Positions 2,226-6,121 of a DNA stretch of 38,473 nucleotides are shown one piece after another. Below the pieces are notes generated by a model. It was given only the letters and a program-made list of their open reading frames with translations. It had not been told where the DNA came from and searched no databases. Each line of letters begins with the position of its first letter. The stretch's first letter is position 1. The position numbers and the translations under genes are program-made. Source of the DNA: Brevundimonas sp. (GTDB lineage Bacteria > Pseudomonadota > Alphaproteobacteria > Caulobacterales > Caulobacteraceae); the NCBI RefSeq assembly GCF_013912005.1, contig NZ_JACESB010000025.1, forward strand, positions 1-38,473, read 5' to 3'.

Positions 2226-2798
2226 TCAGCCGTCGCCGCGCGGCATGTCCATCACCTCGGCGAGGCGGTTGCGGGCGCGGTTGACGCGGCTCTTGATGGT
2301 GCCCAGGGCGCAGCCGGCGATCTCGGCCGCCTCCTCGTAGGACAGGCCCGCGGCGCCGACGAGGACGATCGCCTCCCGATGCGCCGGCGGCAGGTCGTCC
2401 ATGGCCGACCGGAGCCGGCCCAGCTCGACCGTCCACTCCTGGGCGCCCTCGGCGGAGAGTCCCGCCGCATGGCGTCCTTCCTCGTCGGCCACCTCGCGCT
2501 GCCGCCGGGAGAGGGCGGAGTACCAGGAGTTGCGCAGGATGGTGAACAGCCAGGCCCGCAGATTGGTGCCGCCCTCGAACCGGTCGCGGTAGGTCCAGGC
2601 CTTGGTCAGGGTCTCCTGCACCAGGTCGTCGGCGTCGGCGGCGTTGCGCGAAAGGGACCAGGCGAAGGCGCGCAGGGACGGGATCAGGACCGTCACCGCC
2701 TCCCGCCAGCGGCGGGGCTCCACGATGCCCTGCCGGGCTCCGGCGGTGGCTTCGGTCGCGTCGGCGGCGCCCGCGAACGGCGCAAGATCGGTCGGCAT
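2226..2798 (-). CDS. EcfG-type ECF sigma factor (general stress response)
   Basis: ECF sigma factor of 190 residues. Region 2 is at about 32-100 (SLRAFAWSLSRNAADADDLV, then the hallmark GTNLRAWLFTILRN of the EcfG/ECF15 group). Region 4 is at about 125-180 (LPPAHREAIVLVGAAGLSYE, then GTIKSRVNRARNRLAE). The EcfG group directs the alphaproteobacterial general stress response and recognises GGAAC-N16/17-CGTT. A perfect match to that promoter lies upstream on this strand (-35 at 2880-2876, -10 at 2859-2856), so autoregulation is likely. A NepR-like ORF converges from the other side, but no phyR or sensor kinase is in the window. Whether this is the main EcfG (SigT in Caulobacter) or a paralogue cannot be decided here. 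No strong ribosome-binding site precedes the ATG. Confidence 0.88.
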   Translation of the reverse strand: MPTDLAPFAGAADATEATAGARQGIVEPRRWREAVTVLIPSLRAFAWSLSRNAADADDLVQETLTKAWTYRDRFEGGTNLRAWLFTILRNSWYSALSRRQREVADEEGRHAAGLSAEGAQEWTVELGRLRSAMDDLPPAHREAIVLVGAAGLSYEEAAEIAGCALGTIKSRVNRARNRLAEVMDMPRGDG

Positions 2799-2853
2799 CC
2801 AGCGATCCCGTGACTGTCACACGTCGCCCGCAGGAGCGCCCGGCGACCCTGGC

Positions 2854-2880
2854 GGAACGTCACCCCCGATGGCCCGTTCC
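2854..2880. promoter_or_regulatory. Symmetric (two-way) EcfG-type promoter between the sigma gene and egtBD
   Basis: Plus strand: GGAAC at 2854-2858, 16-base spacer, CGTT at 2875-2878, directed at the egtB-egtD gene (start 2968). Minus strand: GGAAC at 2880-2876, 16-base spacer, CGTT at 2859-2856, directed at the sigma gene (start 2798). Both match the EcfG consensus exactly, because the outer GGAACG and CGTTCC are reverse complements. Predicted leaders are roughly 50 bases for the sigma gene and 80 for egtBD. Promoter activity is inferred from the motif. Confidence 0.75.
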
Positions 2881-2967
2881 TTTGTCGGACCGGCGACATT
2901 GCCCGCGACGGTGGCGGTCTGGACCCCGCCGCCCCATCTGACCGACGAGCCGAAGGGGGATCGCCGT

Positions 2968-5121
2968 ATGAACACCTGCAGCCGGATTTCGACCCCGGCC
3001 GACGCCGATCTGGCCCGGTTCCGCGAGGTGAGGGCGGCCCTCCCGGCGCTCGCCCGAGGATTGTCCGCGGAAGACCTCGCCGCGCAGTCGATGCCGGATT
3101 GCAGCCCCGGCAAATGGCATCTGGCGCACTCCACCTGGTTCTGGGAGGCGATGCTCCTGTCCGGGGAGCCGGGCTATGCGCCGGTCGACCCGGCGTGGGG
3201 CCGGCTGTTCAACAGCTATTACGAAGCCCTCGGCGACCGCGTCCCGCGCACCGAGCGCGGCCTGATGACCCGGCCGGGCCTCGACGAGGTGCTCGCCTAC
3301 CGGCGCGAGATCGACCGGCGGATGGCGGCGTGGCTGGGCGAGGGCCGGACCGACGGCCGGACCCGCTATCTCGTGGAGCTCGGCCTGCACCATGAACAGC
3401 AGCACCAGGAGCTGTTCCTGATGGACCTGCTGCACCTGATGTCGCGCTCGCCGCTGGAGCCGGCCGCCTATGCGGGCGAGCCGGGGGCCGCGCCGGCGGC
3501 GGACCGCCGGGACGGGTGGATCGCGCTGGAGGGCGGGCTGGTCGGGATCGGCCACGACGGCGGCGGCTTCGCCTTCGACAACGAGGGGCCTGCCCACCGG
3601 GTGTGGCTGGAGCCGTACGCGATGGCCGCGGGCCTGGTCGCCAACGACGACTGGATCGCCTTCATCGAGGACGGCGGCTACCGCCGGCCCGAGCTCTGGA
3701 CCTCCGACGGCTGGGCGACGGTCCGCGCCGAGGGCTGGACCGCGCCGCTGTACTGGCAGCGGGAGGACGCGGCGTGGACGGCCATGACCCTGGCCGGGCG
3801 CCGGCCGCTGGAGCCGGACGCCCCGGTGCGCCACGTCAGCTGGTACGAGGCCGACGCCTTCGCGCGCTGGGCCGGCGCGCGCCTCCCCACCGAGGCCGAA
3901 TGGGAGCACGCGGTGCGGACGAAGCCGGAGGCCTTCGCCGACGCCTTGGGCGCGCTGTGGCAGTGGACCGCCTCGCCCTACACCCCCTATCCGGGATTCC
4001 GCCCGACCGAGGGGACGGCCGCGGAGTACAACGGCAAGTTCATGGCCAACCAGCTGGTGCTGCGGGGCTCCAGCTTCGCGACCCCGGAGGGGCACGCGCG
4101 CGTCAGCTACCGCAACTTCTTCTATCCCCACCAGCGCTGGGCCTTCGCCGGGCTGCGGCTGGCGCGGGACGCCGAGCCCGGCGACGGCGCCCGGGCCGGG
4201 GCGGACGGCGACTTCGCCGCGGCCCTGCTGGACGGCCTTTCGGCCTCGCCGAAACGGATGTCGCCGAAGTGGTTCTACGACGCCGAGGGCTCGCGCCTGT
4301 TCGAGGACATCACCCGCCTGCCGGAATACTATCCGACCCGGCAGGAGGCGGAGCTGCTGCGCCGCGTCGCCCCCGACTGGGCGGGGCGGTTCGGGCCCGG
4401 CGCGGTGCTGGTCGAGTTCGGCTCGGGCGCCAGCGAGAAGACCCGCATCGTGCTGGACGCCGCGCCGGACCTCGCCGCCTATGTGCCGATCGACATCAGC
4501 CCCGACGCGCTCGAGGCCGCCGCCGACCGGATCGAGGCCGGGTATCCGGCGCTGAAGGTGCGGCCGATGGTCGGGGACTTCCTCGCGCTCGACGCCCTGC
4601 CGGAAGACGTCGGGCCCGGGCGGCACGTGGGCTTCTTCCCCGGCTCCACCATCGGCAATCTCGAACCCGGGGAGGCCGTCGCCTTCCTGAAGGCGGCGCG
4701 CGACCTGCTGGGGGAGGGGGCGCTGTTCATCCTGGGCGTCGACCTGGTCAAGGACCCGGCGGTGCTGGTGGCCGCCTATGACGATGCGGCGGGGGTCACT
4801 GCGGCGTTCAACCGCAACCTGCTGGTGCGCGCCAATCGCGAGGCGGGCGCGGATTTTCCGGTGGACGAGTTCCGCCACCGGGCGCTGTGGAACCCGGAGG
4901 CCTCGGCGATCGAGATGCATCTGGAGGCGGGGCGCGACATGACCGTCGGGATCGGAGGCCGCCGGCTCGGCTTCGCCCGGGGCGAGACCATCCACACCGA
5001 GAGCTCCCGCAAGTTCACGCGGACGGCGGTCGACCGGCTCGCGGCGGCGTCCGGATGGCGGCTGTCGGATTTCCGCGAGTCCGTCGCGCCCGCGGTGGCG
5101 CTGGCCCTGCTCGAAACCTGA
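2968..5121 (+). CDS. egtBD: Ergothioneine biosynthesis EgtB-EgtD fusion (sulfoxide synthase + histidine trimethylase)
   Basis: One uninterrupted ORF of 717 residues carries two enzymes. Residues about 10-170 are the DinB-like EgtB domain with iron ligands H51 (GKWHLAH) and the HX3HXE motif (H142, H146, E148). Residues about 180-403 are the FGE-sulfatase (C-type-lectin-like) domain, ending FAGLRLARD. A short Gly/Ala/Asp-rich linker follows. Residues about 413-717 are EgtD, the SAM-dependent histidine N-alpha-trimethyltransferase: SPKRMSPKWFYDAEGSRLFE, SAM motif VEFGSGASEKTR near 482, FPGSTIGNLEP, and ESSRKFT near the end. EgtD would make hercynine and EgtB would add the sulfur, so both committed steps sit on one chain. 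Start ATG 2968 has GGGGGA just upstream; the longer reading to 2602 runs into the sigma promoter. No egtA, egtC or egtE is visible. Expression is probably EcfG-driven. Confidence 0.92.
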   Translation: MNTCSRISTPADADLARFREVRAALPALARGLSAEDLAAQSMPDCSPGKWHLAHSTWFWEAMLLSGEPGYAPVDPAWGRLFNSYYEALGDRVPRTERGLMTRPGLDEVLAYRREIDRRMAAWLGEGRTDGRTRYLVELGLHHEQQHQELFLMDLLHLMSRSPLEPAAYAGEPGAAPAADRRDGWIALEGGLVGIGHDGGGFAFDNEGPAHRVWLEPYAMAAGLVANDDWIAFIEDGGYRRPELWTSDGWATVRAEGWTAPLYWQREDAAWTAMTLAGRRPLEPDAPVRHVSWYEADAFARWAGARLPTEAEWEHAVRTKPEAFADALGALWQWTASPYTPYPGFRPTEGTAAEYNGKFMANQLVLRGSSFATPEGHARVSYRNFFYPHQRWAFAGLRLARDAEPGDGARAGADGDFAAALLDGLSASPKRMSPKWFYDAEGSRLFEDITRLPEYYPTRQEAELLRRVAPDWAGRFGPGAVLVEFGSGASEKTRIVLDAAPDLAAYVPIDISPDALEAAADRIEAGYPALKVRPMVGDFLALDALPEDVGPGRHVGFFPGSTIGNLEPGEAVAFLKAARDLLGEGALFILGVDLVKDPAVLVAAYDDAAGVTAAFNRNLLVRANREAGADFPVDEFRHRALWNPEASAIEMHLEAGRDMTVGIGGRRLGFARGETIHTESSRKFTRTAVDRLAAASGWRLSDFRESVAPAVALALLET

Positions 5122-5177: not shown

Positions 5178-5402
5178 CTACTCTGCGGCGGGAGCGCGCT
5201 CCCGGTTGCGGGAGCCGTGGGAGGCCTCGCCGCCCTTGCGGCCGGCCTGTGCGGCCAGGCTGCGGTCCTGCGAGAAGCTCCGCTTCTCGCTCGGCACGCT
5301 GGCGCCGCCCTTGCGGGCGATCTCGCGTTGGCGTTCCGGATCCATCGAGGCGAAGCCCCGCTTGGAGACGCCGGAGGCTCGCGGGGGCTGACTCTGAGCC
5401 AT
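5178..5402 (-). CDS. KGG-repeat general stress protein
   Basis: Small hydrophilic protein of 74 residues from the stress-induced KGG family (Con-10/GsiB-like). Two KGG repeats are visible: [18 protein letters not shown] and [16 protein letters not shown]. It is rich in Ser, Arg, Gly and Ala, with no membrane segment, so it should be cytosolic and largely disordered. Family members accumulate in stationary phase, desiccation and osmotic stress; a molecular activity is not established. The start has AAAGGAA about 9 bases upstream. A near-consensus EcfG promoter (GGAAC-N16-GGTT) lies at 5467-5443 on the same strand, and the gene ends at a strong terminator. It sits among other putative EcfG targets. 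Confidence 0.85.
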
Positions 5403-5442: not shown

Positions 5443-5467
5443 AACCCCCGGGCCCCGCTCAGGTTCC
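5443..5467 (-). promoter_or_regulatory. Near-consensus EcfG promoter of the KGG gene
   Basis: Minus strand: GGAAC at 5467-5463, 16-base spacer, GGTT at 5446-5443 (consensus CGTT, one mismatch). It is about 40 bases upstream of the KGG start codon. On the plus strand the same DNA reads TGAAC-N16-GGTT, so it is nearly symmetric, but no gene follows on that side. Confidence 0.55.
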
Positions 5468-5769: not shown

Positions 5770-5794
5770 GGAACCGCGGCCGACGGTCGTGGTT
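5770..5794 (+). promoter_or_regulatory. Near-consensus EcfG promoter of the YqjD-like gene
   Basis: Plus strand: GGAAC at 5770-5774, 16-base spacer, GGTT at 5791-5794, 33 bases before the ATG at 5828. It has the same one-base departure from consensus as the KGG promoter. The minus strand reads TGAAC-N16-GGTT (5796-5772), which could serve the proline-rich peptide gene. Confidence 0.55.
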
Positions 5795-5827
5795 CATCCG
5801 GCTCACCCCCCGCCCGAGGATACCGAG

Positions 5828-6121
5828 ATGAGCGACACCGCCCCTGGACCGAACTCCGAAGAAGACATCGTGGACGCCATCGACACGGACACAACGCGCC
5901 TCGAGCGGGCGGCGGACGACATCCTCGCCGGCGGCGAGGCGGACGGGACGGCGGAGGCCCGGCCGCTGCGATCCGCCCTGCGCGAGGACGCCGGCCTGGT
6001 CGGCGGCTGGGGACGGGAGCGGGCCCGGCGGCTTCGCGGCGCCGTCGAACAGGAGCCGATGCGGGCCTCGATCTACGCCCTCGGCCTGGGCGTGATCATC
6101 GGTCTGCTGGTCGCCCGCTAG
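5828..6121 (+). CDS. Small membrane-anchored protein, DUF883/ElaB-YqjD-like
   Basis: Protein of 97 residues. The first 70 are hydrophilic and acidic then basic ([34 protein letters not shown]). The last 20 form one transmembrane helix ending in Arg ([18 protein letters not shown]). This layout, with Glu-x-Pro before a Gly-rich C-terminal helix and a final Arg, is that of the DUF883/ElaB/YqjD family: inner-membrane proteins, some ribosome-associated, made in stationary phase. The N-terminal part is not clearly the family domain, so similarity rests mainly on the tail. ATG 5828 has GAGGA 8 bases upstream, with an EcfG-like promoter further up. Its stop overlaps the stop of the convergent hydrolase gene within the tetranucleotide CTAG. 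Confidence 0.65.

Follow-up and report, generated by a model that had tools for sequence, protein, structure and literature searches.

Can a single DNA site serve as the stress promoter of two divergently transcribed genes, and if so, how did it come to replace two separate ones? This question is raised by a 27-bp palindrome located between a sigma factor gene and an ergothioneine synthesis gene in a Brevundimonas genome of 2.89 Mb. The analyzed stretch of 38,473 bases (hereinafter, the window) is contig C18 of this genome, and the palindrome, GGAACGTCACCCCCGATGGCCCGTTCC, occupies positions 2854-2880. It has the form GGAACG-N15-CGTTCC, and the EcfG-type promoter motif GGAAC-N16-CGTT is exact on both the plus and the minus strand, as the first-pass annotation had claimed and a motif scan confirmed. 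The two strand matches, 2854-2878 (plus) and 2856-2880 (minus), are the only ones in the 38,473 bases, and the variant with a 17-base spacer, GGAAC-N17-CGTT, has no match there. In 100 shuffled versions of the window, the mean number of GGAAC-N16-CGTT strand matches was 0.14, and a single shuffle reached 2. Genome-wide, GGAAC-N16/17-CGTT accounts for 51 strand-sites compared to 9 for the reversed pattern, and for this reason we consider the EcfG motif to be real in this genome.

The predicted two-way promoter thus combines, on each strand, a GGAAC -35 box, a CGTT -10 box and a spacer within the 16-17 base range, and its prediction is based on the exact motif match and on conservation in a clade of related genomes. 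Toward the ergothioneine gene (egtBD), the -35 box is at 2854-2858 and the -10 box at 2875-2878, on the plus strand, 89 nt from the ATG; toward the sigma gene, on the minus strand, the -35 box is an exact GGAAC at 2876-2880 and the -10 box is at 2856-2859, 57 nt from the ATG. The boxes of the two directions overlap, the egtBD -35 box with the sigma -10 box at 2856-2858 and the egtBD -10 box with the sigma -35 box at 2876-2878. Given that each -10 box overlaps the opposite -35 box, two polymerases, judging by the geometry, could not sit on 2854-2880 together. The site lies at promoter distance upstream of stress genes and, in the sigma direction, is retained in orthologs. A scan of positions 2750-3000 for sigma-70 sites of the E. 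coli type gave no match that could drive egtBD.

The identities of the flanking genes given in the first-pass annotation were borne out by Pfam and TIGR matches, which also showed egtB and egtD to be fused. The minus-strand gene 2226-2798 encodes an EcfG-type sigma factor, a paralog that constitutes the second ecfG of the genome. The protein scores above the Pfam cut-offs for Sigma70_r2, Sigma70_r4_2 and PhyR_sigma2, that is, it contains ECF regions 2 and 4 along with a PhyR/EcfG-like signature, and shows 47% identity over 153 residues (residues 31-183) to the product of the core ecfG, which is located on contig C12 beside nepR and phyR; the assignment is also supported by orthologs. The plus-strand ORF 2968-5121 encodes a 717-aa EgtB-EgtD fusion for ergothioneine synthesis and passes the cut-offs of both equivalogs, TIGR03440 (518.2 bits, cut-off 360) and TIGR03438 (358 bits, cut-off 290.9). 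Among the best 80 of at least 591 relatives, the nearest named relatives of the EgtB part belong to Brevundimonas. A single match to egtBD over almost its whole length is present in about 114 of the 124 Brevundimonas genomes with a match (rows counted by eye), and egtB and egtD appear as two separate matches in G034, G058, G060 and G122.

Convergent with the sigma gene is a small plus-strand ORF, 2064-2222, with a weak NepR-like match (PF18557, E=0.02, below the cut-off). The E-values are 6.6e-6 and 2.1e-4 in two genomes of the same clade and 1.2e-7 in the related genome G025, with one clade member (G095) and G025 above the Pfam cut-off. The ORF was found by motif in G000, G044 and G095 and by reading in G129, and is also present in G025; the motif search was negative beside the other 30 sigma orthologs, some of which have short downstream sequence, and gave one unrelated-looking match in G030. 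This ORF possibly encodes a private anti-sigma factor for the second EcfG. Downstream of egtBD, two EcfG-like sites of the form GGAAC-N16-GGTT were read from the sequence, one at 5443-5467 on the minus strand, directed at a KGG-motif stress gene (5178-5402, PF10685), and the other at 5770-5794 on the plus strand, directed at a small gene without a Pfam match (5828-6121); together, this block has the appearance of a general stress gene cluster. The first-pass annotation had located near-symmetric copies of the palindrome at 5443-5467 and 5770-5796; the positions hold, and the idea that these are further two-way sites was rejected, the other strand being TGAAC-N16-GGTT, so that neither reading is consensus and both sites are best read as one-way.

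Comparison of the junction across the genus provides the principal, if indirect, evidence on the role of the palindrome. Orthologs of the sigma factor (at least 61% identity) were found in 34 of the 131 Brevundimonas genomes, the copy in G057 being partial and containing a stop. The sigma-direction site, GGAAC-N16/17-CGTT, is exact in all 34, which suggests that the second ecfG belongs to its own regulon or to that of the core factor. In 32 of the 34 genomes, egtBD is divergent from and adjacent to the sigma gene, and in 28 of these 32 junctions, there is a separate EcfG-like site in the egtBD direction (GGAAC, N16/17 and a -10 box of CGTT, GGTT, TGTT or CATT). The split is complete: 28 of 28 junctions outside the clade of the window have the separate site and none of the four within it does (Fisher p 2.8e-5, a statistic that ignores shared ancestry). 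On this comparative evidence, two separate promoters would be the usual state of the junction in Brevundimonas. The distance between the separate site and the sigma site is 47-50 bp in 19 junctions and 39-44 or 71-72 bp in the other 9 of the 28, which may reflect a constraint on the spacing of back-to-back polymerases.

Promoters of this type are also common where egtBD has a different neighbor. Among the 93 egt upstream regions that are not beside the sigma gene, 83 contain an EcfG-like site (GGAAC or GCAAC) in the egt direction, compared to 6 in the opposite direction. These regions come from 92 genomes (G090 contributes two) and include that of G025 as well as those of G026 and G094, where the sigma gene is elsewhere; for matches that begin past residue 1 (for example, in G038, G057, G058, G060 and G110), the egt start was placed approximately. 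A one-mismatch site is lacking in 32 egt regions, of which 29 have GCAAC as the -35 variant combined with a TGTT or CATT -10 box.

The four genomes of the clade to which the window belongs (G000, G129, G044 and G095) formed one group on two quick trees computed without bootstraps (SH-aLRT 100 and 99; in the former, the G057 sigma fragment was entered as 110 residues, with the stop as X). None of the four has a separate egt site; the palindrome alone points in the egt direction, so that, in these sequences, it appears to have taken over from the separate egtBD promoter that is kept elsewhere in the genus. The palindrome is present in all four genomes of the clade, and 28 of the 34 sigma orthologs lack it in exact form. 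In the alignment of the four junctions, the palindrome ends are invariant in 12 of 12 columns, compared to 5 of 15 in the spacer and 66 of 149 in the rest of the junction. A two-way site requires only three bases beyond those of a one-way site, namely, G after GGAAC and CC after CGTT, and conservation of three bases in four related genomes could be due to chance, with a probability of about 0.09 at 44% background identity, and is by itself weak evidence.

The genome G025, whose placement as the sister of the clade on the tree lacks support, has an upstream region that aligns with those of the clade and has no ortholog of the sigma factor. It retains an exact site aimed at where the sigma gene would be, a relic that, when read in the egt direction, has CAAAC instead of GGAAC; the -35 box of its separate egt site aligns with a 9-base gap in the clade. 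At this locus (L306, G025:C2:27500-31500), the sigma gene was apparently lost, and the NepR-like gene and the exact sigma-direction promoter remain.

The palindromic form by itself also invites a different interpretation, that GGAACG-N15-CGTTCC is the binding site of a dimeric regulator, instead of or besides being a promoter. Dimer operators typically have inverted half-sites, and the palindrome does have this arrangement. The 28 of 34 sigma orthologs that lack the exact palindrome nevertheless have a sigma-direction site of the form GGAAC-N16/17-CGTT, and therefore, the palindrome seems to have been derived from a promoter; moreover, no regulator gene was seen next to it besides the sigma gene and the NepR-like ORF. 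We accordingly rejected an operator as the main reading and regard it as highly improbable in any form.

Beyond Brevundimonas, we compared gene coordinates in 28 genomes from 14 other Caulobacteraceae genera, hand-picked from a longer list. In 24 of these, egtBD or egtB is divergent from and adjacent to the sigma gene (in G177, G178 and G179, only egtB, with egtD on another contig), the exceptions being G174, G175, G280 and G388; judging by this distribution, the pairing of the sigma gene with egtBD is older than the genus Brevundimonas. Nine junctions, those with both genes among 10 loci examined, were searched with the same pattern: the sigma-direction site is present in 7 and absent in 2, the egt-direction site is absent in 5, and none of the 9 has a two-way site. 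Therefore, egtBD can do without a recognizable EcfG site, and without a replacement.

This last observation bears on an alternative, namely, that the palindrome is a one-way sigma promoter whose symmetry is accidental, with egtBD in this clade transcribed from something else or no longer part of the stress regulon: the five junctions in other genera that lack an egt-direction site are not two-way either. Some Brevundimonas junctions point the same way. G009 and G036 contain the exact palindrome together with a separate egt site, and therefore, in these genomes, the palindrome is not needed for egtBD; G010 has a near-palindrome and a separate egt site; and in G115 and G122, the site is nearly symmetric even though the sigma ortholog is missing. 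Accidental symmetry is also compatible with the overall frequency of two-way sites. GGAAC is complementary to GTTCC, and so all that an N16 site needs to turn from one-way to two-way is G after the -35 box and CC after the -10 box. In the 131 Brevundimonas genomes, 94 of 4069 N16 EcfG strand-sites (2.3%) are two-way, compared to the 2.9-3.0% expected from the base frequencies at the relevant positions in 70 one-way sites, which were drawn from the first 30 loci of each of three genomes, with N17 and two-way sites excluded (56 of the 70 are intergenic, 10 coding and 4 at an edge). Thus, about one in 40 EcfG sites is two-way, in line with base composition, as the EcfG motif is nearly self-complementary, and symmetry alone proves nothing.

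Enrichment of exact two-way sites as a class was likewise rejected, with 47 such sites compared to 69 sites of the reversed pattern in the 131 genomes. Their location is nonetheless the one expected of promoters: according to a home-made gene caller, 45 of the 47 lie outside genes, in contrast to 3 of 29 non-edge sites of the reversed-pattern control (30 of the 69 control loci were examined). A preference for divergent gene pairs was rejected as well, given that the difference from one-way sites is not significant: 30 of the 45 two-way sites lie between divergent genes compared to 31 of the 56 intergenic one-way sites (p 0.31), and after merging of orthologs by eye, the fraction is 16 of 26 (p 0.64). 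Individual sites include an exact two-way one at L161 1501-1527 (G041:C2:446077-446103), between the genes for a PAS-domain protein and a ferritin-like, possibly Dps, protein. Another EcfG-like palindrome, GGAACGTTCGCCGTCGCCGAACGTTCC or its reverse, occurs between divergent genes at L153, L154, L156, L172, L331 and L344, in five genomes; at L153, the flanking genes encode a DUF305 protein and a LysR-type regulator.

Three lines of evidence nevertheless weigh against accidental symmetry at 2854-2880. First, an EcfG-like site is kept by most Brevundimonas egtBD genes, non-adjacent (83 of 93) and adjacent (28 of 28) alike. Second, the clade that lacks the separate site is the one in which the exact palindrome stands alone. 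Third, the plus-strand reading has full consensus boxes, and within given promoters of Sphingopyxis, a change of the -10 box to CGTT raised transcription in vitro (PMC7083833). Taken together, these observations make accidental symmetry unlikely, albeit still a serious contender. What is unusual about 2854-2880, as judged from the sequence comparison, is this comparative pattern and not the two-way form as such.

On balance, we favor the explanation that the 27-bp palindrome acts as a single EcfG-type promoter, can be bound either way and, replacing two promoters, serves both the second ecfG and egtBD; we consider this explanation probable. Under this scenario, the EcfG-type stress holoenzyme would bind 2854-2880 in either orientation, one of which would lead to transcription of the second ecfG, through direct auto-activation or through activation by the core EcfG, and the other to transcription of the egtB-egtD fusion. 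From the sequence, positions and conservation of the site and from the presence or absence of separate sites, all of which were observed directly, we infer sigma dependence, start sites on the two sides and use in both directions. The ancestral layout would have consisted of two back-to-back EcfG promoters, which, in the clade, were replaced by the shared site; the G and CC that flank the sigma-direction site would have made it readable backwards, and the egtBD site of its own would have disappeared, the order of gain and loss being part of the same reconstruction. The more specific proposition of promoter merging, in which, within one clade, two divergent stress promoters gave rise to one fully palindromic ECF promoter whose boxes serve both strands, is plausible, and we put it at slightly short of an even chance.

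Because the same kind of sigma factor would act in both directions, the sigma gene and egtBD are expected to be co-activated under stress, and appreciable steric competition would arise only near saturation. The first-pass annotation had proposed that the sigma factor and ergothioneine outputs compete for the site, and this claim did not find support, given that the basal activity of bidirectional promoters in E. coli argues against it. Five such promoters of E. coli were tested in the published work; the basal activity of each was too weak for polymerases to compete, and competition arose upon strong activation of one direction (PMC12825309). By default, the two outputs at 2854-2880 would therefore be expected to rise together and to compete, if at all, only under full stress. 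A stronger version of the competition idea, in which high occupancy would make the sigma factor and egtBD outputs trade off, derives some plausibility from the full consensus boxes in both directions, with which occupancy could become high, and from the E. coli case of one strongly activated direction; the weakness of all five tested promoters counts against it, and occupancy is not derivable from sequence, so we deem such a trade-off quite improbable.

If the favored explanation is correct, one binding site ties the production of a stress sigma factor to that of a protective thiol, and the idea of bidirectional promoters extends from the housekeeping sigma factor of E. coli to an ECF sigma factor. 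The -35 and -10 boxes of this sigma factor are near mirror images, and a one-way site is therefore only a few point changes away from a two-way site. The Brevundimonas junctions form a natural series, from two separate promoters, through a two-way site along with a separate one and a two-way site alone, to an apparently lost sigma gene with a relic site, which lets promoter gain and loss be tested directly.

The locus resembles several known systems, each in a different respect. A literature search, thin in subscription journals, yielded no description of a two-way EcfG or ECF promoter, which does not amount to proof of novelty. As in the phyR/nepR-ecfG region of Alphaproteobacteria, described in PMC4814048, divergent stress genes, one of them a sigma factor operon, are preceded by EcfG-type promoters on both sides; in the same genome as the window, the phyR/nepR-ecfG gap has this similar layout but with two separate sites, in contrast to the single shared site at 2854-2880. 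The nepR2-ecfG1/ecfG2 junction of Sphingopyxis granuli likewise involves paralogous ecfG genes, one of them with an EcfG-type promoter, and the general stress response (GSR) regulon of this bacterium includes egtB and egtD, but there, only the nepR2-ecfG1 side is said to have the consensus site and the locus tags of egtB and egtD are distant (PMC7083833). According to the same source, CGTT, TGTT, CATT and GGTT occur most often as -10 boxes in the GSR promoters of Sphingopyxis, the same four that are found in the separate egt sites of Brevundimonas, and within given promoters in vitro, changing the -10 box away from CGTT lowers transcription and changing it to CGTT raises it (PMC7083833).

A parallel in mechanism is with the bidirectional promoters described by Warman, Forrest, Stringer, Wade and Grainger, where, as would be the case here, symmetric DNA lets polymerase bind in two mutually exclusive orientations and produce two divergent RNAs (PMC12825309). 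In the promoters described there, from E. coli and other prokaryotes, both directions use a single pseudo-symmetric -10 element, and the distance between the divergent starts is most often 18 bp (PMC12825309). Unlike these, the site at 2854-2880 has no shared pseudo-symmetric -10 element but two -10 boxes at opposite ends, 2875-2878 on the plus strand and 2856-2859 on the minus strand, and the sigma factor is of the ECF (EcfG) type. Thus, the palindrome would work like a bidirectional promoter and yet, by the lack of a shared -10 element, would fall outside that class, as its ECF-class variant.
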